This document shows, piece after piece, positions 29,574-63,314 of a stretch of DNA of 64,000 bases; the stretch's first letter is position 1, and the number at the start of each line of letters is the position of its first letter. Location of the stretch: positions 124,001 to 188,000 of the forward strand of contig DYEV01000027.1 in the NCBI GenBank assembly GCA_020725545.1. Direction: 5' to 3'. The DNA is from Desulfobacca sp. GTDB taxonomy: Bacteria > Desulfobacterota > Desulfobaccia > Desulfobaccales > Desulfobaccaceae. The notes under the pieces were generated by a model. The model was not told where the DNA came from, ran no database searches, and saw only the letters and a program-made list of their open reading frames with translations. A program made the position numbers and the translations under genes.

Positions 29574-31499
29574 ATGACAGAACCGCAACAAGCCATGCCT
29601 CCCATTATTTTGGGCACCGCCGGTCACATCGACCACGGCAAGACCTCCCTGATCCGCGCCCTGACCGGCATTGACACCGACCGGTTAAAAGAAGAAAAGG
29701 CCCGGGGCATCACCATCGAACTGGGCTTCGCCTCCCTCACCCTCCCCACTGGCCAGCGGTTGGGTATTGTGGATGTGCCGGGGCATGAGCGTTTTGTCCG
29801 CCACATGTTGGCGGGGGCCAGCGGCATGGACCTGGTGGCCCTGATTATCGCTGCGGATGAGGGGGTTATGCCCCAGACCCGGGAGCATTTGGAGATCTGC
29901 CAACTCCTGAAAGTGAAACGCGGTCTGGTGGTCCTCACCAAAGTGGATTTAGTGGAAGAAGATTGGCTGGAGCTGGTGGAAGAAGATGTGCGCCTCTTCT
30001 TGAGCGGGACCTTCCTGGATGGTGCGCCCATCGTGCGCTTTTCCGCAGTAACCGGCCAGGGGCAAGACGAATTGCTGGCCATCTTGGCTGACCTGTGCGC
30101 CACTATCCAGCCCAAGCCCGTCTCCGGCATCTTCCGCCTGCCCATTGACCGGGTCTTTACCATCAAAGGGTTCGGCACCGTAGTCACCGGTACCGCCATC
30201 TCCGGGCGGCTGCGGGTGGGGGATCAGGTGGAGATCTATCCACCGCAATTCAAGGCTCGGGTACGCAATCTCCAGGTACATGATGAAAATGTGGAGGAGG
30301 CCCTGGCCGGCTCCCGGACCGCTATCAACCTCCAGGGGGTGGATCGGGTGGAATTGGCCCGGGGCATGGTGGTGGCTACGCCCGGCGCCCTCCTGGACAG
30401 CCTGCGTCTTGATGCCCGTCTGGACATCCTGCCCAGCGCCGGACGGCCGCTGAAGAACCGCCGGGAGGTCCGGCTGCACACCGGTACCAGTGAACAGCTG
30501 GCCGTGGCCGTGCTGTTGGATCAGGATGAACTGCCGCCCGGCGGCAGTGGCTTCGTCCAGTTCCTCCTGACCGAACCCCTGGCCGCGAAACCCTTTGATC
30601 GCTTTGTCATCCGCCAGGTCTCACCGGCTCTGACCATCGGCGGCGGCCATTTTCTCCATATCCACCCCCCCAAACACCGGCGTCATCAGGAACAGATCAT
30701 CAAGGGGCTGGCATTCCTGGAGACCTGCACCGAAGAGGCCCGCCTGACTTTCTTTCTCCAAGAGGCCGGCGCGGCTGGCCTCTCCCAACAGGAATTAGTG
30801 CAATTATCGGCCCTGAACACCGCCGAAGTGGAGCCCCTGTTGGCCGGTCTGGTCAAAAATGGCCAGGCGATCCTCTATGATAATGATAATAATCGCTATG
30901 TCCTGACGGCCGTGGTCAAAGACCTGCAGAATCAGGCCACCACCTTCCTCAAGTCCTTCCATCAGAACCAACCGTTAAAATTAGGACTCTCCAAAGAAGA
31001 GCTGCGCCGCCGCCTGCCCGAAGAGCTGGAAGTCAGATTATTTAATTATCTCTTACAGGATCTGGAACGCCAGCAGCGGGTCGTGGTGGACAAAGAGCTG
31101 GTGCGGTTGGCCAGCCATAAGGTGGTCTTGCAGGAAGACCAGGAACAGTTGGCCCAAAAGGTGGAAGCCCTGTATAACAAGGGCGGGTTGACGCCCCCCA
31201 CCCTCAAGGAGCTGGAGGCCGCGTTGGGCACCACCGGCAGTCGCCTTCAGGATATCCTTAAACTTCTCATCAGCCAGGGGCGCTTAATCAAAGTGAAGGA
31301 AGATCTCCTTTTCCATCAGACCACCATGGCCGCCCTGCAGGAAAAATTGATAGCCTATCTGAAAAAGCATGCGGAAATCTCCGTGTCCCAATTCAAGGAC
31401 CTGACCCAGACCAGCCGTAAGTTTGCCATCCCCCTTATGGAGTATTTTGACGCCAACCGGGTGACGGTGCGGGTGGGGGAAAACCGCCGCCTGCGCTAA
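29574..31499 (+). CDS. selB: Selenocysteine-specific translation elongation factor
   Basis: This 641-residue GTPase delivers Sec-tRNA to UGA codons that carry a SECIS hairpin. The G motifs are [13 protein letters not shown] (G1), DVPGHE (G3) and TKVD (G4), with [10 protein letters not shown] as the switch. After the EF-Tu-like beta-barrels come the SelB-specific barrel and four winged-helix units (about 375-641) that bind the SECIS RNA. Length is normal. No ribosome site is obvious; the start abuts an intergenic repeat. selA, selD and selC are not in this window. Its presence supports reading the in-frame TGA at 56868..56870 as selenocysteine. Confidence 0.95.
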
Positions 31500-50602: not shown

Positions 50603-53521
50603 TTAAGCCGACCGCAGGAACTCCTTCACCAGACGGTCCCAACCCAGTTCCGGGCATTGGCCAATAACATCATCGATGAGCCCACCACCGGCCTGCAGGG
50701 TGGCGCCCACCGCGGGATCCAACATTTCCAGGAGGCGCCCAGTTTCCTCTTCGATCCAGTGGGTGGCATCCTGGCCGGTATAGAGGTTATCCAGATCCTG
50801 GGGCAGATGGGTGGGGGCGACGACGCAGAGCCAGCCATCGCCATACGGGTCGTCGTGGGCCAGACGGGGGTAACGCACCACGTCCTTATTGATTTTTTCA
50901 ACGACCCCCCGAACGGGGGCCAGGACCCCGGCTTTGGCGCTCTGGCGCTGGATGGCCAGGGAGACCTTATCCCGCCGGATCTCCTCGCCGATCTTGGGCA
51001 GGCGGATCTCATCACTGGCGCCAAAGAGCTTCTGGGAGAAATCGTCCATGCCGACGCGTACCCGACCGCCGGTATCCTGGAGCACCCAGGTATGGCCCTG
51101 GTGCAGGAAGCGGGAGGTGGGGACTTTGATGCCGAAAACCTCTTCCAGGTGTTCCACCAGCTTTTCCAGCTGCACGGCCAGCCCCTCGGAGGACTGGAAA
51201 CCACTGGCCGGCACCGGCGCCCCCTGCAGGAGGATGTTGATGGCATCCTTGAGGAAGTGGCGAGGCAAGAAGGCCGTCCCGGGGCGCAGGCGGTCGCTCA
51301 CCATGGCCGTGGCGGTAATCAGGCCCTCCGGGCTCTTGGTCTGAAGGCGCTCCCCGGAGCGGATGCCCAGGCGTTGGGCGTCCGTCGGACTGATTTCGAT
51401 GACCACTTCCGGTTCACCCTTCCCCTCAAGGGCATAGGTATAAGTCCGGGGCACGGTGCGATGCTGCCGATAAGCTGCGCCGATGGTCAATAGGATGGGG
51501 TAATCCTCGCTGGGGGCTACTTCCAGGCGCCGCAGGTTGGCCATCAGGGTGTCCATGGCAGCCACGAAATCCCCAGGGGAGTTGGCTGCCAGGGATTGAT
51601 AAAGCAACCGCGCCGGTTCGATTCCCGCTTCCGCCAACATCCCCTGGACCTGTTCCACGGCCCATTGGGCACAGGTATTGCCGTGTTGGGATTTGCAGTT
51701 ATCGTGCGGGCAGCCCATGACCATGACCCCGGCCGCGCCTCCATTAAAAGCCTGGAGCAGGTAATTGGGATCCACCTTGCCGGCGCAGGGCACCTTGATG
51801 GGCGTAAACCCCTGCGGCAAAGCTGCATCGTGCAGCTTCACGGCGTTTTCATAGGCTTCCCAGGCCGAATTGCGGCACATAAAGGCCACAATCCGGGGGC
51901 TGAGGGAGGGATCCAGGCTGGCCAGCAGGGTGCCGATCTGTTGATCGCTGTAATTCAGCACCTGGATGGCCTCCTGGGGACAGGCGCTGGCGCAGATGCC
52001 GCAGCCCTGGCAGGCTGCTTCGTTAATGATGGCCCGGTTGTCCCAAGTAATGGCGCCGTGGGGGCAGAGGCGGTAGCAGGTGAGACAGAAGACGCATTTG
52101 CCCCGGGCCACCGTGGCCCGGCCCAGGGGCGCCACCAACTCCCCCTCTCCCAACAGGTCCCGGACCTCTTTCAGGGCCGCGGCCACATCCGCTACTGTTT
52201 CCTCCCGGCCCATAATACCCCGGGCCGGTCCTATCACATAGATCCCCCGGCGAGGCGTCCCGACCGGTTGCTGGTGGACGTTGCCCGTTTGCAGGTAGCC
52301 ATTGCTGCCGGTGGGCAGCCGCAGCAGTGCGGCCAGCCTGCCATTATCGGGACAGGCCTGGTAACATTCGTCATAAACCAGCAGATTGACTTTGAGTCCT
52401 AACCGTTCCCGCACCGAGGGTTCCAGGAAGGTAACCAACAGGCCGTTGTCCTGGGGTTGGATATCGGGGGCTTCGTCCAATTTCATGGTGATCAGGCCGG
52501 CATCATGGGCTTCCTTGATAAGCCGTTGCAGATCGGGCCCGGCCACTTTGGCGCTGCCCATAAGCAGATAGACCTGGCTGCCGGCGGCCAACATTGTGGC
52601 CGCGGACACCAAAGCCCGTTCCAAGGCCAGGGGATGACTCTCCCAGGCCAGACCCAGCATGATGGCGATGCTGGTCGGCCTCCCGGCTTCGCCGGCCAGT
52701 TTCTCTTCTAGGCCGGCCAAGGATATTATCTGGGGATGTGCCGGGATCCCATAGGCCTGGAGATCTCCCTGGGAGTGGAGTTCCGGGGCCAGGACCAGAG
52801 CGCCGACCGTGGCCGTCAAGCAGGCCTCGGGGGTATCCAGGCGCACCTGGAAGTTGCCGGCCACCCCGTTCACCTCCCGCAGGCTGGCTGACAGATGGAT
52901 CTGAATATTGGCATGATGCTGGATCTGCTGGATGAGGATGTCTTTGCCTTCGCCGCCATACTCCCAAGGGACCGGGCGCAGGTCGGCATGGGGACAGGCC
53001 AACAGCACCTGGTAGCCGGCTTTGGCCAAATCCAGGGCTGATTGTAAAGCCGCACCGGAATCGCCCCAAACCAGAACCTGGCGGCTGACGCTCAACTTCC
53101 GGGTAGTAATGGGCTGGCTGAGACTGGCCTGCACCGCGGCCTGACGGATGATGTCCAAGCCTTTGGCCGCCCGCCGATCGGGATCAGGTTGGTCCAAAGC
53201 CGGGGTCAAATCCACCGGCAGGAGCTGTTCCAGGTTTAACTGGAACTCTCCCAAAAGCAGTCTGGCGATGTCCGCCCCCCGCAGTTGCGGGTCCTGGCCC
53301 ACCAACAGCACAGGGTGCAGATCCGAGGTCTGCCCGAGGAAGCCACGGACCTGCTCTTCCTGTTCAGCGGTGGGACGGGCTGTGTCCATGGACAGCACCC
53401 GGCAATGGGGTAGGCTGGCCACCGCCTGGAAAAAGTTTTGCGGATCGAGCCCGGCCCGGCTCAGTTCCGGACCGTGCAGGAACAGGATATTCAACGGTTT
53501 CAATGTTTCTGAGAGATTCAT
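50603..53521 (-). CDS. QmoB-like HdrA/ferredoxin/MvhD fusion with molybdopterin-binding-like and GcvH-like domains
   Basis: This 972-residue multidomain protein starts with a region (1-140) that is not recognised. Residues 145-450 are an HdrA-like flavoprotein fold with a weakened dinucleotide motif (GDSGAA). Two 4Fe-4S sites follow (C476/479/482/486 and C504/507/510/514). An MvhD-type domain (about 541-665) has C549, C579, C604 and C609. Residues 690-765 (EISPTDAQRLGIRSGERL, DRLRPGTAFLPRHF) look like the Molydop_binding domain of molybdopterin oxidoreductases. Residues 795-905 look like glycine-cleavage H protein, with Lys863 two residues off the usual lipoyl position. It is probably the end module of the Hdr-Met electron path. 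The order of fused domains is unusual. Confidence 0.82.
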   Translation of the reverse strand: MNLSETLKPLNILFLHGPELSRAGLDPQNFFQAVASLPHCRVLSMDTARPTAEQEEQVRGFLGQTSDLHPVLLVGQDPQLRGADIARLLLGEFQLNLEQLLPVDLTPALDQPDPDRRAAKGLDIIRQAAVQASLSQPITTRKLSVSRQVLVWGDSGAALQSALDLAKAGYQVLLACPHADLRPVPWEYGGEGKDILIQQIQHHANIQIHLSASLREVNGVAGNFQVRLDTPEACLTATVGALVLAPELHSQGDLQAYGIPAHPQIISLAGLEEKLAGEAGRPTSIAIMLGLAWESHPLALERALVSAATMLAAGSQVYLLMGSAKVAGPDLQRLIKEAHDAGLITMKLDEAPDIQPQDNGLLVTFLEPSVRERLGLKVNLLVYDECYQACPDNGRLAALLRLPTGSNGYLQTGNVHQQPVGTPRRGIYVIGPARGIMGREETVADVAAALKEVRDLLGEGELVAPLGRATVARGKCVFCLTCYRLCPHGAITWDNRAIINEAACQGCGICASACPQEAIQVLNYSDQQIGTLLASLDPSLSPRIVAFMCRNSAWEAYENAVKLHDAALPQGFTPIKVPCAGKVDPNYLLQAFNGGAAGVMVMGCPHDNCKSQHGNTCAQWAVEQVQGMLAEAGIEPARLLYQSLAANSPGDFVAAMDTLMANLRRLEVAPSEDYPILLTIGAAYRQHRTVPRTYTYALEGKGEPEVVIEISPTDAQRLGIRSGERLQTKSPEGLITATAMVSDRLRPGTAFLPRHFLKDAINILLQGAPVPASGFQSSEGLAVQLEKLVEHLEEVFGIKVPTSRFLHQGHTWVLQDTGGRVRVGMDDFSQKLFGASDEIRLPKIGEEIRRDKVSLAIQRQSAKAGVLAPVRGVVEKINKDVVRYPRLAHDDPYGDGWLCVVAPTHLPQDLDNLYTGQDATHWIEEETGRLLEMLDPAVGATLQAGGGLIDDVIGQCPELGWDRLVKEFLRSA

Positions 53522-55034: not shown

Positions 55035-55916
55035 TTAAATCCCCGCCTGCTCCAGGATGGCGGCCATGAGCTCGCCTTTGCCCCTGGCCTTGAGATACAC
55101 GCCGTCGGCCAGGTTTTTGGCCTTGATCTCTTTCAGGAGTCTGGCCGCCAGGGCCGCCCCCTTCTTTTCGATTTCAGCGGGATCGTCGGCCTTGAGTTCC
55201 TGGGCCACCGATGCGGGCAGGGTATAGACCTTGCGGAGCTTGCCCTGCAGGGCCTGCTCTACCTCCGCAGCCTTGGGAACCTTGACCGTGGCAATGATTG
55301 CTGCCCCAGCCCCCAATTTCTGCCGGAACTCTTGCAGCTTGGTCAGGTCGTAGACGGGTGCTGTGATTAAAAAATCAACACCTGCTGCTGTTTTTTTCTT
55401 CACTTTCAACAGTTGCGGCCCCAAGGGGTCGGCCTCGGGGATGGCCACGGCGCCCAGATAAAACCGGGGTGCGCCCTTTAATTCATTGCCGGCACTGTCG
55501 TGGCCCGCCATCATACCCTTAGCAATTTGCAATAACTGTACCGAATCCGCATCGTAGACCGGTTTGGCATCGGGGTGATCGCCTTGATTAACGAAATCGC
55601 CGCTGACGATCAGGACGTTTTCCACCCCCAGGGCCGCCGCGCCCAGCAGCTCGCTTTCCAAAGCCAGGCGGTTGCGGTCTCGGCAGGTCAGATGAATCAT
55701 GGGTTCGGCCCCCGCGGCTTTGACGAGCTGAGCTGCGGCCACCGGCGACAGCCGCATCTTGGCATGTTCATTATCCGGTATGCTGAAGGCGGTGACCCGG
55801 CCGTTGAGCGACTTGACGGGCGCCAGCATGGCCTCGGGGTCAATACCCTTGGGCGGTTTAATCTCCACTACGATGGGAAACTTCCCGCCTGCTAATGCTT
55901 CCTGGAGTTTACTCAT
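55035..55916 (-). CDS. metF: Methylene-tetrahydrofolate reductase, MetF catalytic subunit
   Basis: This protein of about 293 residues is a TIM-barrel flavoprotein interconverting methylene-THF and methyl-THF, the last folate step of the Wood-Ljungdahl methyl branch. VEIKPPKGIDPE, HLTCRDRNRLALESELLGA and NVLIVSGDF match the short MetF type that works with MetV. The ATG at 55916 overlaps metV by eight bases and has AAGGAG upstream. Without its own NADH domain it must take electrons from MetV/Hdr partners. Confidence 0.9.
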   Translation of the reverse strand: MSKLQEALAGGKFPIVVEIKPPKGIDPEAMLAPVKSLNGRVTAFSIPDNEHAKMRLSPVAAAQLVKAAGAEPMIHLTCRDRNRLALESELLGAAALGVENVLIVSGDFVNQGDHPDAKPVYDADSVQLLQIAKGMMAGHDSAGNELKGAPRFYLGAVAIPEADPLGPQLLKVKKKTAAGVDFLITAPVYDLTKLQEFRQKLGAGAAIIATVKVPKAAEVEQALQGKLRKVYTLPASVAQELKADDPAEIEKKGAALAARLLKEIKAKNLADGVYLKARGKGELMAAILEQAGI

Positions 55917-56589
55917 GGCCGCCGTATCTCCTTTTGTAAGCCGGGTGGATGATGGCCCCCGGGGTGGTGGTCCGGGCATGCGGATGGAGGGGCAGGATGG
56001 GATCGATGAGATCCAGGCGCCCCTGCCGATCCAGGCGTTCGTAGATGGCGCACCAGGCGCAGTCATTGTCCGGATTAACTTCGCACTTGCCCTTGAGGTT
56101 GCCGCCGCAGGGACCGTTAAGCAGCCCTTTAGGGCACATGGTCACCGGGCAGATGCCCCCGGTAGTACCCAGGTAGCAGTTATGGCAGGCCCGGCAACGC
56201 TCGGTATAGAAGCCGGCCTCTTCGTTGACCCCGATAAACGTGGTGTTCAGGGCCGGGATGACCGGTTTCATCTCGGGCATGGCCGCTAAAAACTGCACCC
56301 CGGCACCGCAGGCCGTGGACAGGACGATCTCGTAATCAGCCACCGCATCGCTTAGGGGTTGCATAAACTCCCGATCGCACTGGCGCTCCACGGTGATCTC
56401 ACCGACTTTAACGGGTTTGCCGTTCTGACCCCGGGCCAGTTTTATCTGCGAGGCCAACAGCCCCACTTCTTTTTCCCCGCCCGCCAGACAGACGGCCACA
56501 CAGGTGCCGCAGCCGACGATGAGGATCTTTTCATAGGGCTCCAGGGCCGCTTTGATCTCTGCAAATGGTTTGCGCTCTGCTATTATCAT
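55909..56589 (-). CDS. metV: MetV, iron-sulfur/zinc partner of MetF
   Basis: The 226-residue protein begins with VGCGTC (C27, C30, C34) and has C71 and C94. A dense C-terminal cysteine region follows: C132/135/138, CP at 147, C152, C161, C169 and C177/180. This is the pattern of the methylene-THF reductase C-terminal family (MetV), which links MetF to electron carriers. It overlaps the selenoprotein gene by four bases (ATGA) and metF by eight, so the three are translated together. Confidence 0.9.
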   Translation of the reverse strand: MIIAERKPFAEIKAALEPYEKILIVGCGTCVAVCLAGGEKEVGLLASQIKLARGQNGKPVKVGEITVERQCDREFMQPLSDAVADYEIVLSTACGAGVQFLAAMPEMKPVIPALNTTFIGVNEEAGFYTERCRACHNCYLGTTGGICPVTMCPKGLLNGPCGGNLKGKCEVNPDNDCAWCAIYERLDRQGRLDLIDPILPLHPHARTTTPGAIIHPAYKRRYGGHE

Positions 56590-57065
56590 GGTTGCACCGC
56601 CAGTTCCTGCTGTTCGCTGGGTTGTTCACCTGCCCAAGTCCCCGCTTTCCTCCGGAATTGCGGATTCAACGGACTGGGACCGAGCGCCTTCACCCTGTCG
56701 GTCATTTCCTTGACGACAGCCACCCACTTAGGGGCATCAGAGGCGGCGATTTCATACATTGCCAACCGCTCCCCACCGATGCCGCATTCATCCAATAAGT
56801 GTTTGGCATATTCCACCCGCTCACGAGCTCTTAAATTTCCTTCCAGGAAATTACAGGTCCCGGCTTCTCAGCCACCCACAAAGATGGCGTCGGCACCGGC
56901 CTCAAATCCTTTCAAGATATGAATGATATCGATCCGCCCGGTGCACAGATACTTGACAATGCGCACGGTGGCCGGATACTGCATCCGGGCCGAACCGGCC
57001 ATATCAGCGGCTGTATAGGTGCAGTAGGTGCAGACCAGGGCCAAAATCCTCGGTTCGAAGTCCAT
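56586..57065 (-). CDS. mvhD: MvhD/FrhD-type hydrogenase iron-sulfur subunit, selenoprotein (in-frame TGA)
   Basis: Read through the TGA at 56868..56870, the frame gives a complete 159-residue MvhD. It has C12/C15 (VCTYC), C41, then Sec66 in VGGUEAGTC with Cys71. Most relatives have Cys at this place (GC-x4-C), so the TGA replaces a cluster ligand. Family sequence continues smoothly after it (NLRARERVEYAKHLLDECGI). A SECIS-like hairpin follows the TGA and selB is present in the window. The ATG at 57065 has AAGG upstream, ten bases after hdrA. MvhD carries electrons between HdrA and its donors; here it links HdrA to MetV. Confidence 0.88.
56834..56852 (-). promoter_or_regulatory. Bacterial SECIS-like hairpin
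   Basis: Perfect seven-base arms AATTTCC/GGAAATT close on the loop TGGAA. The loop begins 22 bases past the TGA and has G at its second position, matching the published general bSECIS pattern (loop 16-37 bases from UGA, G among the first two loop bases). Confidence 0.7.
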
Positions 57066-57075
57066 GCCAGTCACC

Positions 57076-60000
57076 TTAGCTCCTCCCACCCCAGCCAAGC
57101 GCCGCCCAGAAGGGGTTCAGGGCCTCAATCTTGGCAATAAATTGTTCATCCAGATTGTGTTTCACACTGATGGCCTTGCGGGGGCAGGCGCTGGCACAGT
57201 TGCCGCAGCCCTGGCAGGCCGCGGCATCGATGACCACCACGCCCTCGCTTTCGTCCATCTTCGGCACCCCATACGGACAGGTGCGCACGCAGGTGAGACA
57301 GGCCACACACTTCAGCGGGTCCACCACGGCCACTGCGCCAGGCACAAACATTTCGGCCTTGGACACGACTCCCAGAGCCCGGCCCGCCGCGCCTTTGGCC
57401 TGAGCAATGCTCTCCTCCAAAAACTTGGGACTATGCGCCAGGCCGCAAACAAAAACACCTGCTGAGGCAAAATCCACCGGCCGCAACTTCAGGTGGGCTT
57501 CCATGAAAAAGCCATCGGCGTCAAAGGGCAGCTTCAAGACCTTGGCGATCTCCTGGCTCATGGGATGGGGCCGCACCGCCGCCGATAGCACCAGATAATC
57601 AGCCGGCAGGGCTAAATCCATCTGCAAGGCCTGGTCATGGACCAGCACCTGCAGCCCTTGGGGGGTCGCAGTCACCTGGGGTTTGCGCTCCAGCTCAAAG
57701 CGCACAAACTGCACGCCCAAGTCCCGGGCTTCCTTATAAGCAAGTTCCTTCAAGCCGTAGGTCCGCATATCCCGATAGAGGATAAAGACCTGAGCTTGGG
57801 GGTTCAGCTTTTTGATGGTTATGGCATTCTTGACCGCTTCACCGCAGCAGATGCGGCTGCAGTACATGTGCTCCGGCTCCCGGGAACCCACACACTGGAT
57901 CATGACCACCCGGGATCCCGCCTGGAAGGCAGTGGGGTTGGTGTGCAGCTTCTCCTCCAGCTCCAACTGCGTCAACACCCGCTCATCCTGGCCGTAGAGG
58001 TATTCCGTGGGCTTATATTCGATGGCACCGGTAGCCACCACGATGGCGCCGAAATCCACCTCCCGTTGGTCGTCACCGTTCACCAGGGTGCCCCGGAACT
58101 TGCCGATACTGCCGGACACGTGCGCTATGGCAGTGTTGGGCAGCCACTCGATGAGGGGATGCGCCTCCACCCGCTGACTCAGCTCATTGATGAGAGACAG
58201 GATTTCATGGCCTTCCATGGTCTTGACCATTCTTTTGGCCAGACTGCCGCTGAGTTTGTCGCCGGATTCCGTCAGATAGACCTGGTAACCGGCCTCAGCA
58301 ATGGTCAAAGCCGCCATCAAGCCGGCCAACCCGCCGCCCGCCACCAGGGCCTTCTGACTCACCGGGAACAGCAGGTCCTGGATCGGCTGCAAGGTCATCG
58401 CCCGGCCCACGGCCATACGCGCCAATTCCTTGGCCACCTCGGTGGCTTCGGCATGATCCGCCTGATGCACCCAGGAGTCCTGGTCCCGGATATTGGCCAT
58501 CTCAAAGAGATACTTGTTCAGGCCGGCCTTGCGCAGGTTCTCCTGAAACAAAGGTTCGTGGGTCCGAGGGCTGCAGGAGGCCACCACCACCCGATTGAGT
58601 TTATGCTCTTCGATCACCTGCCGCATGTTGTCCAACGAATCGGTGGCGCAGGTAAAGGTATAATGATCCGCATAGACCACATGGGGCAAAGTCTTGACAT
58701 ATTCGGTAACCGCCTCGACATCCACCACCCCGGCGATGTTGATGCCGCAGTGGCAGACAAAGACGCCGATGCGGGGTTCTTCGGCCCAAATATCCCGCTC
58801 TTCGGGATACTCCTCCATGGTCAGTAAGGTCCCTTTAGCCTCCGCCAGGAAGGCAGCGGCGGCCCCGGCTGCGGCCGAGGCATTGCCCACCGTCTCCGGG
58901 ATGTCCCGGGGCGCCTGGAAGACGCCGCAGGTGTAGATCCCCGGCTGAGTGGTGGCCACGCTGTCCAGCGGCAGACTTTCCACAAAACCATACCGGTCGG
59001 TCTGGATGTCGCAGATGGCGGCCAACTCCTTGCTGGCCGGATGGGGGTTGAGGCCCACCGAGAGAACCACCAGGTCGAAGATTTCGGTGGTCACCTGCCC
59101 GGCTTCGTCCACATAGGTCAGCTCCAGGTTCTTGGTCTGGGGATCCTGGGCCACCCGGGAGACCATACTGCGCACATAGCGCACGCCATGGGAAGTCTTG
59201 GCCCGCTCGTAGTAGCGGTCAAAACCCTTGCCCTGAGCCCGGATATCAATATAGAAAATGCTGGGTTTGATATGGTGATCATGCTCCTGGGCAATAATGG
59301 CCTGCTTGGTGGCATACATGCAGCAGACATAGGAGCAGTATTCCCGGCCGCAGGAAGCATCCCTGGAACCCACGCATTGGATCCAGGCCACCTTCTGAGG
59401 CGCGCGGTTATCGCTGGGCCGCAGCACGTGCCCACCGGTGGGGCCGGTGGCCGACAGCAGCCGCTCAAACTGCAGCGAGGTAATGACGTTGGGGTAACGG
59501 CCGAAGCCATACTCCGGCTTCAGGCTGGCGTCAAACGGCCGGAAGCCGGGGGACAGGATCAGGGCCCCCACTTCCAGCTGCCGGGTCCGGGGCTCCATAT
59601 TGTGCTCGATGGCCCCAGCCTTACAGGCCGCCACGCACTGCAGACATTCGGAACAGATGCCGCAGTTCAGGCAGCGCTCGGCCTCGGCCATGGCCGCTTC
59701 CCGGGTAAAGCCCAGGTTGATCTCCTTGAAGCCCTTCACCCACTCACTGTGGGGCAGCTCCGGCATGACGGCCCGGGCCTCTTTGGGAGTGTTGGGCGGA
59801 ATGGGCGCCCAGCGGCCCTCCTCGTCGGGCACGGGACGCAGGGGCAGTTCCCGATCGGCTTTCAGGTCCTGGCCGTTGAGAAAGCGGTCAATGGAGATGG
59901 CCGCTTCCCGGCCGGCCGCCACCGCGGCAATGGCGATGTATGGACCCGTGACCACGTCTCCCCCGGCAAAGACGCCGGGACGGCTGGTGGCCAGGGTGTC

Positions 60001-61632
60001 GGGATCGGTTTCGATCAGGCCCCGGGGCGTCAGCTTGATGCCGTCCGCCTCGGTGAGGAACTTTAGGTTGGCCCGCTGACCGATGGCCATGATGACGATA
60101 TCGGTTTTGCGGGTCTCGGTCTTGGCTTCGTCATAGGTGGGGGCAAAACGGCCCTGCTCGTCAAAGACCCGGGTGACGGCCTTGAGCACCAGGCCCGAGA
60201 CCTTAGCATCCTGGGCCTGGATCTCTTTGACCCCCCAGCGGTGGTTGATCTTGATGCCTTCCTGCTCGGCCTCAGCGATCTCCCACGGGGAGGCCGGCAT
60301 CTCCTCCCGGTTTTCCAGACAGACGATCTGGACCTTGCCACCCTGCCGCCGAGCGGTGCGGGCCACGTCCATGGCCACGTTGCCGCCGCCGATGACCGTC
60401 ACCGTCTTGCCGGTGAAGTCAAAGGGCTTCCCTGAGGAAGAATCTTTCAAGTATTCCACGCCCCAGAGGACGCCTTCGGCCTCCGCCCCCGGCACCAGCA
60501 GACGCACCGAATCCTGGGTGCCCACGCCCAGGAAGGCGGCCTGGAAGCCGCCGCTGGTGAGCAGATCGTTCAGGGTCCGACCCTCGCCGCCGATGGGCGA
60601 GTTATAGTGGATCTTGACACCCAGGCGCTGGATATAATCCACTTCCCGCTGCAGGACCGCCCGGGGCAGGCGATATTCGGGAATGCCGTAGCGCAGCCAA
60701 CCCCCGGCCTCGGCCGCCGCCTCAAAGATCTCCACCTGGTAGCCCTGCAGGGCCAGATGGTAGGCGCAGCTCAGACCCGAGGGCCCGGCGCCAATGATGG
60801 CTACCTTTTCCTCCCGGGAAGTGATCTCCGGTATGGGCAGGGTGGCCCAATCCACCTGGTCGGCCACAAAGCGCTTCAGGCTGCAGATGGCCACCGGCTC
60901 GTCCACCTCCTGGCGCCGACAGTCCGACTCGCAGGGATGGGGACAGATGCGGCCGATGGTGCCCGGCAGGGGCAGCCGCTCCATGATCAGGGCCAGGGAT
61001 TCCTGGAATTTCTCTGCTTTGATGAGCTGCACATAGCCCTGCACCGTCAGGTTGGCCGGACAGGCCCGCACACAGGGGGCCCGATCCAGCTTCTTGATGG
61101 CGTATTGGGCCGGAATGGCCTGGGGGAAATGCCGGTAGGCGGCATGGCGCTGCCCCAACCCTTCGTCAAAGGTGGAGGGCATGAGGACCGGGCAGGCCTC
61201 GGCACAGGCCCCGCAGGCGTTGCATTTGGACGAATTGATATAGCGCGGCTCCTGACGCAGGGTCAGGGTAAACCGGCCCGGTTCCCCGGCCAGCGCCGCC
61301 GCCTCGGACTGCGTGATGATCTCGATATCGGGATGGCGGGCCACCTCGATGAGTTTCGGCGAAATCAAACAGGTGGAGCAATCGTTGGTGGGAAAGGTCT
61401 TATCCAATTGGGCCATGACGCCACCGATGGAGATATCCTTTTCCACCAGATAGACCTTAAAGCCGGCATTGGCCGCATCCATGGCAGCCTGCATACCGGA
61501 GATGCCCCCGCCGATGACGGCCACTGCCCCGATTTTGCTCTGCTCAGTTGTTTTCCTAGTCATCGTCTGATCTACCTCTGGGTCTGCTGACGTGGGACCC
61601 CGACTCTTGCCTTTGCCTGTCCCTTTCTTCAT
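57076..61632 (-). CDS. hdrA: Giant HdrA: HdrA-GltD-HdrA multidomain flavoprotein
   Basis: This protein has about 1518 residues. In order: an HdrA FAD fold (GGGISG, 41-46) with a ferredoxin site C137/140/143/147; a GltD-like NAD(P)H/FAD oxidoreductase (about 180-590; GAGPSG 281-286, GGGNVAMD 415-422, GVFAGGDVV near 553); and cysteines C654-C670. The first HdrA core follows (IQCVGSRD at 751, C761-C771). A second HdrA unit carries CHCG at 960, SCSPRTHEP at 1019, GGGLAG at 1099 and CVGSRE..CSRICC at 1247-1263. Two ferredoxin sites end it (C1442-C1452, C1473-C1483). Several flavins could bind, so it fits an electron-bifurcating hub using NAD(P)H. The ATG at 61632 overlaps hdrB by four bases; 61563 is an alternative. 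Confidence 0.9.
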   Translation of the reverse strand: MKKGTGKGKSRGPTSADPEVDQTMTRKTTEQSKIGAVAVIGGGISGMQAAMDAANAGFKVYLVEKDISIGGVMAQLDKTFPTNDCSTCLISPKLIEVARHPDIEIITQSEAAALAGEPGRFTLTLRQEPRYINSSKCNACGACAEACPVLMPSTFDEGLGQRHAAYRHFPQAIPAQYAIKKLDRAPCVRACPANLTVQGYVQLIKAEKFQESLALIMERLPLPGTIGRICPHPCESDCRRQEVDEPVAICSLKRFVADQVDWATLPIPEITSREEKVAIIGAGPSGLSCAYHLALQGYQVEIFEAAAEAGGWLRYGIPEYRLPRAVLQREVDYIQRLGVKIHYNSPIGGEGRTLNDLLTSGGFQAAFLGVGTQDSVRLLVPGAEAEGVLWGVEYLKDSSSGKPFDFTGKTVTVIGGGNVAMDVARTARRQGGKVQIVCLENREEMPASPWEIAEAEQEGIKINHRWGVKEIQAQDAKVSGLVLKAVTRVFDEQGRFAPTYDEAKTETRKTDIVIMAIGQRANLKFLTEADGIKLTPRGLIETDPDTLATSRPGVFAGGDVVTGPYIAIAAVAAGREAAISIDRFLNGQDLKADRELPLRPVPDEEGRWAPIPPNTPKEARAVMPELPHSEWVKGFKEINLGFTREAAMAEAERCLNCGICSECLQCVAACKAGAIEHNMEPRTRQLEVGALILSPGFRPFDASLKPEYGFGRYPNVITSLQFERLLSATGPTGGHVLRPSDNRAPQKVAWIQCVGSRDASCGREYCSYVCCMYATKQAIIAQEHDHHIKPSIFYIDIRAQGKGFDRYYERAKTSHGVRYVRSMVSRVAQDPQTKNLELTYVDEAGQVTTEIFDLVVLSVGLNPHPASKELAAICDIQTDRYGFVESLPLDSVATTQPGIYTCGVFQAPRDIPETVGNASAAAGAAAAFLAEAKGTLLTMEEYPEERDIWAEEPRIGVFVCHCGINIAGVVDVEAVTEYVKTLPHVVYADHYTFTCATDSLDNMRQVIEEHKLNRVVVASCSPRTHEPLFQENLRKAGLNKYLFEMANIRDQDSWVHQADHAEATEVAKELARMAVGRAMTLQPIQDLLFPVSQKALVAGGGLAGLMAALTIAEAGYQVYLTESGDKLSGSLAKRMVKTMEGHEILSLINELSQRVEAHPLIEWLPNTAIAHVSGSIGKFRGTLVNGDDQREVDFGAIVVATGAIEYKPTEYLYGQDERVLTQLELEEKLHTNPTAFQAGSRVVMIQCVGSREPEHMYCSRICCGEAVKNAITIKKLNPQAQVFILYRDMRTYGLKELAYKEARDLGVQFVRFELERKPQVTATPQGLQVLVHDQALQMDLALPADYLVLSAAVRPHPMSQEIAKVLKLPFDADGFFMEAHLKLRPVDFASAGVFVCGLAHSPKFLEESIAQAKGAAGRALGVVSKAEMFVPGAVAVVDPLKCVACLTCVRTCPYGVPKMDESEGVVVIDAAACQGCGNCASACPRKAISVKHNLDEQFIAKIEALNPFWAALGWGGRS

Positions 61633-62465
61633 AACAGCCCCCGTTTCTGGAGCAGCGGCCGGGGGTCCACCAGGTGCCGGGACAACCACTTGGCCGTGTC
61701 CGTATGCCCCATGGCCAGGCCCATAAGTTCGGTAAAATAGAACACTGGCAGATAATACTTTTTACCGGCCTGCTTGGAGATACGTTCCTGAGACATATCC
61801 AGGTTGGCCTGACACATCTGACAGGAGACCACAAAACACTCCGCCCCTGCGGCCAAGGCCCGGTCATAGAGGCGGCGCACCAGGGTGTCCACCAAATCCG
61901 GCCGGGCCAGAGTCAGGCCGGCGCCGCAGCAATCGGTTTTATAGGACCAATCCAGGGGTTCGGCCTGCAGCACGGTGAGGAGCTTCTCCATGTTCTGGGG
62001 ATTTTCGTAATCAAGCTTATCGGTAATGGCCGGCGGCCGGGAGGCCAGGCAGCCATAATACCCCACCGCCTTGAGCCCTTTGAGGGGCCGCCTGACCTTT
62101 TTGGCCAAGGTCTGCAAGAAAGAGGGCTGGGTCAGAAAATCCAGCAGGTCCCAGATTTTTTTATCTAAGGGAGTCTGGCCGGTTTCCTTCTCGGCCTCCT
62201 TCTCTGCGGCCTTGAGCCGGTTGAAACAGAGGGCACAGGGCACCACCACGTCCAGACCGGCCTTTTTGGCCAGGCCCAGGTTGCGGGCCGGCAATTCATA
62301 GGAGAGGCGGTGGCTCAGGCTGTGGGCCGCACTGGCACCACAGCAGCTCCAATCCTCCAACTCCGCCAACTCCAAGTCCAATAAGGGGCTTACCCCCGCA
62401 ATGGAGGCGGCATAATCCGCGGCGGTGCCTTCCAAAGAACATCCGGGATAATAGGATACCTTCAT
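61629..62465 (-). CDS. hdrB: HdrB-like subunit (two CCG domains)
   Basis: This 278-residue protein has two cysteine-rich CCG motifs, C9..C41-C42..C77/C80 and C139..C179-C180..C215/C218. In true HdrB these bind the non-cubane 4Fe-4S clusters that reduce a disulfide. Methanogen CoM-CoB disulfide is not expected here, so the acceptor may be another thiol or the subunit may only relay electrons. It lies eight bases after hdrC and overlaps hdrA by four. Confidence 0.92.
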   Translation of the reverse strand: MKVSYYPGCSLEGTAADYAASIAGVSPLLDLELAELEDWSCCGASAAHSLSHRLSYELPARNLGLAKKAGLDVVVPCALCFNRLKAAEKEAEKETGQTPLDKKIWDLLDFLTQPSFLQTLAKKVRRPLKGLKAVGYYGCLASRPPAITDKLDYENPQNMEKLLTVLQAEPLDWSYKTDCCGAGLTLARPDLVDTLVRRLYDRALAAGAECFVVSCQMCQANLDMSQERISKQAGKKYYLPVFYFTELMGLAMGHTDTAKWLSRHLVDPRPLLQKRGLL

Positions 62466-62473
62466 GGCTCTCT

Positions 62474-63055
62474 TCAGACCCCCGCGCGCTGAAAGATTGA
62501 CTGAATCTCGCCCTTGCCTTTGATGACCGGCGGCCGTCCCAGACGCAGACGGCGCCGTTTGAAGAGGGCCAACCCCAGCTTGGCGTTGTCCAATAATTCT
62601 TTGAGATTAGGCTGGCGCCGGAGCTTATAGATCAGAAACCGCTGCATCAGGGCCATTTCTGACAGACGCCCGCCCGCCTTGCGGATGCTCTCCAAAAAGA
62701 AACGATGGGCCGTGGCCACCTCGGGCTGGTCCACTGCCGCCTTCTGCTTCAGGGCCTCTTCCTTGAGCCAATCCATCACCCCGGCGATGTCAATGCCGTT
62801 GGGACACCGGGTAGTGCAGGTCACACAGGAAGCACAAACCCAGATGGTCCGAGAGCCCAACAACCGCTCCATCTGCCCTAAGAGGGCCAACCGGATGACC
62901 TGATCGGGCAGCAGATCCATAGCAAAAGTAAGAGGACAGCCGGCCGAACATTTTTTACACTGATAACAGGCCGACACCGAGATGGCGGTGGTTTCTGCCA
63001 AACGGCTTGCCAAATGAGTGGCCGGCATCAGCGGCTGCATTTGTGGTATATTCAT
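62474..63055 (-). CDS. hdrC: HdrC-like ferredoxin subunit
   Basis: This protein of about 193 residues has two 4Fe-4S sites, C30/33/36/40 (CYQCKKCSAGCP) and C74/77/80/84 (CASCVTCTTRCP). It relays electrons from HdrA to HdrB in the cytosol. The ATG at 63055 has a GGAG site upstream and matches the family start. A longer frame up to 63217 runs over the putative promoter and shows no conserved protein. It is first in the cluster. Confidence 0.9.
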   Translation of the reverse strand: MNIPQMQPLMPATHLASRLAETTAISVSACYQCKKCSAGCPLTFAMDLLPDQVIRLALLGQMERLLGSRTIWVCASCVTCTTRCPNGIDIAGVMDWLKEEALKQKAAVDQPEVATAHRFFLESIRKAGGRLSEMALMQRFLIYKLRRQPNLKELLDNAKLGLALFKRRRLRLGRPPVIKGKGEIQSIFQRAGV

Positions 63056-63153
63056 GAAACCCTGCTCCTGCGTCGTCAGGCCCCGTCCGAGCTTTACCTC
63101 AGCCCGAAACCGGCCGCAGAGATTATCTTTTGAGCAATCTTTGCCTTGTTTGA

Positions 63154-63171
63154 TTGCATAACCTGTACCAA
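63154..63171 (-). promoter_or_regulatory. Sigma-54-like promoter for the Hdr-Met operon
   Basis: On the minus strand TTGGTACAGGTTATGCAA keeps the GG and GC pairs ten bases apart and matches most of the TTGGCAC-N5-TTGCA consensus. A start near 63143 leaves a leader of about 88 bases before hdrC. No activator-binding site was identified. Confidence 0.4.
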
Positions 63172-63314
63172 AAATGGAATTTCGTGGGAGGCGGCCGTAT
63201 TCCTGACATTTGTTCACCTCATGAAAAGCAACCGATTAATTTTCTGTAGTATTCTTCAACAGGGCGTTATTGCGATTTATTTAGTATATTGATATCATTA
63301 ATTATTTTTGGTGC

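Follow-up and report, generated by a model that had tools for sequence, protein, structure and literature searches.

The window analysed here, the whole stretch of 64,000 nucleotides from Desulfobacca sp. (contig DYEV01000027.1), belongs to a 38-contig draft genome of 2.94 Mb that is 99.96% complete. It contains a cluster of redox genes on the minus strand, one of which, mvhD, carries an in-frame TGA codon. The relevant features, with positions counted from the first nucleotide of the window, are as follows.

56586..57065, minus strand: mvhD (FlpD, PF02662), 159 aa with a predicted selenocysteine (Sec) at residue 66; its stop codon TGA (56588..56586) overlaps the ATG start of metV
56868..56870, minus strand: in-frame TGA predicted to be read as Sec (residue 66), at the position of an invariant Cys; tca on the plus strand
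56834..56852, minus strand: bSECIS hairpin, with 5′ arm AATTTCC (56852..56846), loop TGGAA (56845..56841) and 3′ arm GGAAATT (56840..56834)
55909..56589, minus strand: metV-like gene (PF12225)
55035..55919, minus strand: metF-like gene for methylene-tetrahydrofolate (methylene-THF) reductase (PF02219)
57076..61689, minus strand: gene for an HdrA-like protein with an inserted GltD-like NAD(P)H domain, the likely redox partner; the true start may lie elsewhere than the GTG at 61689
61629..62465, minus strand: hdrB-like gene
62474..63217, minus strand: hdrC-like gene
29604..31496 (ORF 29574..31499), plus strand: selB, Sec-specific elongation factor (TIGR00475, 388 bits, above the cut-off)

The order of the cluster is hdrC-hdrB-hdrA (with the GltD-like insert)-mvhD-metV-metF, and all six genes of the HdrCBA-MvhD-MetVF type are found together. 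At orthologue loci of sufficient length, the neighbours hdrA and metV recur almost without exception; this locus survey was used for neighbours only, and its Sec/Cys labels are unreliable at loci with two MvhD domains. The HdrA-like protein is up to 1537 aa long, has its GltD/NADPH-glutamate-synthase-like insert between HdrA-type parts, and contains no in-frame stop.

The mvhD frame is open from the ATG at 57065 to the stop at 56588..56586, and the TGA at codon 66 is its sole interruption. When this TGA was translated as Sec, the product matched PF02662 over positions 1-123 of 123 (E value 4e-44; 149.9 bits against a curated cut-off of 22.3), which bears out the description of one uninterrupted MvhD protein in the first-pass annotation of this DNA. 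Against the VhuD model NF045873, an NCBI exception model, it scored 174.5 bits, below the curated cut-off of 215, and is thus homologous but outside this narrower model. The mvhD stop and the metV start share the bases ATGA. Termination at codon 66 would leave translation far short of metV, and would cost the product Cys71 and about 60% of its length. Automated annotation could well split mvhD, and the present reading corrects the gene.

MvhD domains were translated from the source genome, from relatives out of a 119-genome search and from 42 GTDB loci, and the codon at each cysteine site was read. Of the 132 distinct domains, 103 have a Cys codon at site 66 and the remaining 29 have TGA; no other codon, and neither TAA nor TAG, occurs there. 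All 132 carry Cys at sites 41 and 71, and 128 of 130 do so at site 12; site 15 is variable (Cys in 70, TGA in 33, other residues in 28, including Ser in HdrA-fused copies). The near-invariant cysteines of MvhD are therefore 12, 41, 66 (Sec here) and 71, and the TGA replaces one of these four. No domain had TGA at both sites 15 and 66 among the 62 TGA-bearing domains of the 132. A codon-by-codon check of 40 extra relatives, which were chosen from matches flagged with an internal TGA and whose frequencies are not those of a random sample, found internal TGA confined to sites 15 and 66. The codon position, like the gene context, is established computationally. The TGA had earlier been placed at a cluster-ligand cysteine: the alignment part of that claim stands, with Cys or the same TGA at codon 66 of relatives, while the ligand role is likely on the strength of this conservation. 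Cysteines 12, 41, 66 and 71 would probably hold the [2Fe-2S] cluster of MvhD.

These codons also bear on whether the gene is a decaying pseudogene with a nonsense mutation, as an in-frame stop codon might indicate. The reading frame, however, continues undamaged to either side of the TGA, relatives can be aligned through it with high identity, and in the family TGA occurs at two Cys sites only and is never replaced by TAA or TAG. The pseudogene reading was rejected on these grounds and has an almost negligible probability. A sequencing or assembly error, with TGC or TGT as the true codon, would fit the draft state of the 38-contig assembly and the TGC present at codon 66 in several close relatives. 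But the same TGA is found in 19 other distinct close orthologues, or 20 of 53 with the window copy counted, including some that are 77-86% identical with the same gene order, and therefore it is not a private error, a possibility that the first-pass annotation had named as a ground for refutation. In addition, the silent sites of the hairpin are conserved in the TGA orthologues and not in Cys copies, and two paralogues in the source genome have the same kind of TGA. The error reading was rejected, and we regard it as highly improbable.

A seven-base hairpin with a G in its loop had been noted 22 bases past the TGA. The hairpin AATTTCC-TGGAA-GGAAATT is indeed present, but its stem begins 15 nt after the TGA and the figure of 22 nt is the distance to the loop. 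The published rules for a bSECIS (PMC13188914) ask for a 3-9 nt loop that has G in its first two positions, 4-16 bp in the stem, a spacing of 16-37 nt and a minimum free energy (MFE) no higher than -7.5 kcal/mol. The mvhD hairpin agrees with all four, having a loop TGGAA (or GGA), 7-8 bp and a spacing of 22-23 nt, and folding of a 51-nt stretch gave an MFE of -14.1 kcal/mol (z = -2.0 for the region by itself). Synonymous redrawing of the codons 3′ of the TGA, weighted by local codon usage, produced a stem fitting the SECIS rules with at least 8 pairs in 1.1% and with at least 7 pairs in 2.6% of redraws, so that the hairpin alone is only moderately improbable; it is the cross-species comparison that makes the SECIS case decisive.

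An unbroken stem is present in every one of the 29 site-66 TGA copies, versus 6 of 71 Cys copies sharing the F/Y..G motif (Fisher p = 1e-19, a value that ignores relatedness, the 29 TGA copies being related to each other). The TGA copies combine Phe73 with GGA in 25 cases and Tyr73 with GGT in 4, with no mismatches, whereas in the Cys copies this Gly codon ends in any of the four bases. Since the silent change from GGA to GGT accompanies every Tyr, no Phe to Tyr change in the 5′ arm goes uncompensated in the 3′ arm. Pair counting gave UA in 24 and AU in 4 for pair 23-33, with both sides changed in 4 sequences; slid controls showed little or no covariation, and RNAalifold predicted the same stem independently. 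The hairpin thus conforms to the bSECIS rules and covaries, and both its constraint and the compensatory change are shown computationally.

The presence of selB in the window, claimed previously, was confirmed at 29604..31496. The other three genes of the set were found in the source genome: selC (80.5 bits, above the cut-off), which lies outside the window, selA (618 bits) and selD (368 bits), the last of which carries its own in-frame TGA. Within the 64-kb window itself, no match was obtained with Rfam at the gathering threshold and no tRNA gene was found. Two further TGA-bearing mvhD paralogues in the source genome both have hairpins that fit the rules, ATTACC-TGGAT-GGTAAT for the TGA at site 66 in L002 and CGGACCT-GGC-AGGTTCG for the TGA at site 15 in L003. 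The genome, as judged from its genes, uses selenocysteine routinely. Two probable selenoproteins were also seen in it, as an in-frame TGA is present in an hdrA match (L142, G000:C29:212732-214036) and in a formate dehydrogenase match (L154, G000:C34:117506-118255). A TGA at site 15 (CxxU) is shared by paralogue L003 (G000:C6:8600-8968) and many of L104-L141, and in these site-15 paralogues a GGACCT-GGC-AGGTTC hairpin is strongly conserved.

Some bacteria have tRNAs able to suppress UGA, and the codon might then stand for another amino acid, either Trp if the code has changed or Cys if the stop is suppressed; alternatively, the gene might be deliberately split into two proteins. However, TGA serves here as a gene-ending stop, including that of mvhD itself, site 66 holds only Cys codons or TGA and never Trp, and the Sec machinery is complete, with a SECIS whose presence goes with that of the TGA codon. 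A different meaning of UGA was rejected on these grounds, and its chances are very slight.

We conclude with very high confidence that the gene encodes a selenoprotein MvhD, in which UGA codon 66 is read as Sec, and which probably has a relay role. The earlier interpretation of the TGA as a selenocysteine codon is therefore supported, the computational checks proposed with it having all been positive. In the mechanism we propose, SelB, guided by the hairpin just 3′ of the codon, would bring Sec-tRNA(Sec) to the UGA, and the ribosome would complete the 159-residue MvhD and not halt after residue 65. The selenium so inserted would stand in, as Sec, for one of the near-invariant cysteines 12, 41, 66 and 71, the probable holders of the [2Fe-2S] cluster. 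For methanogen MvhD, a [2Fe-2S] cluster and a role as relay to HdrA are known (PMC6019823). Because the present gene sits in an hdrCBA-mvhD-metVF cluster, its product probably passes electrons to the methylene-THF reductase, as a carrier between the HdrA flavoprotein and MetVF in an HdrCBA-MvhD-MetVF assembly.

Selenoproteins of the FrhD/MvhD/VhuD family, PF02662, are listed with up to two Sec (PMC9312934, PMC13188914) and belong to the same Pfam family as the window MvhD; VhuD is a known selenoprotein in methanogens (PMC2933860). The motif given for PF02662 in a 2026 review is CxxU (site 15), whereas the Sec of the window MvhD is at site 66 (GUxxGxC), and archaeal SECIS elements are of another type, in contrast to the bacterial one of mvhD. 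In the VhuD structure PDB 9sfi_K, the nonstandard residue X occurs at exactly sites 15 and 66. No paper describing 9sfi was found in a literature search, and we therefore infer that X is Sec; as X is found there, the site-66 position is probably already known. The archaeal chain has X at both sites, while the bacterial MvhD domains compared here have TGA at 15 or 66 and never at both.

Among sulfate reducers, the accessible text on Desulfobacterium autotrophicum HRM2 reports four MvhD selenoproteins, mvhD1, 2, 3 and 5 (PMC2702500). That sulfate-reducing deltaproteobacterium resembles the present case in having Sec-MvhD beside HdrA/HdrL together with selA, selB, selC and selD; it differs in that, in the same text, the Sec position is not given and no MetVF-linked copy is singled out. 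An HdrCBA-MvhD-MetVF methylene-THF reductase has been proposed in Moorella thermoacetica and studied in Sporomusa ovata, where pull-downs linked MvhD with HdrA, HdrB and MetF (PMC9430772). Its gene set is that of the window cluster, and the paper does not mention selenium. Sec in MvhD/VhuD is established in methanogens and sulfate reducers, and the window gene is a well-supported further example. In the open-licence literature we found neither the assignment of a Sec-MvhD to the MetVF complex nor a repeated Sec/Cys exchange among close relatives with SECIS loss; these two points are modest additions to the known picture.

A tree of 96 rows required at least 10 Sec/Cys changes at site 66, although well-supported branches force only 4. 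The independent-pairs test gave 2.6 for, 0 against and 1.4 uninformative of 4, too few supported contrasts for significance. The sisters L032 and L033 have TGA and TGC, respectively, at site 66. Since close relatives manage with Cys, Sec at this site is not indispensable. For the phylum as a whole, we lean towards the view that a subset of HdrCBA-MvhD-MetVF methylene-THF reductases contains selenium, with Sec fixed at the probably cluster-ligating site 66 of MvhD, that bacterial MvhD carries Sec at 66 or 15 and never at both, and that replacement of Sec by Cys has recurred among close relatives, the SECIS eroding afterwards. With Sec in the window MvhD, an electron-transfer complex of one-carbon metabolism would acquire a need for selenium in this anaerobic, Desulfobacca-like lineage. 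Closely related orthologues, in which the SECIS is preserved where Sec is encoded and has decayed where Cys is, offer a natural system for the study of selenium as a presumed iron-sulfur ligand.

Downstream of metF in the same cluster, a gene at 50603..53521 (minus strand) encodes a fusion protein of 972 aa. It joins a C-terminal portion of HdrA to an MvhD domain, PF01568 (a molybdopterin-dinucleotide-binding domain) and a GcvH-like lipoyl domain (PF01597), in which the lipoyl lysine (QSAKAG) is apparently kept. The MvhD domain of this fusion has Cys at site 66 and Ser at site 15, and such a Ser15 paralogue is found alongside mvhD in many relatives.
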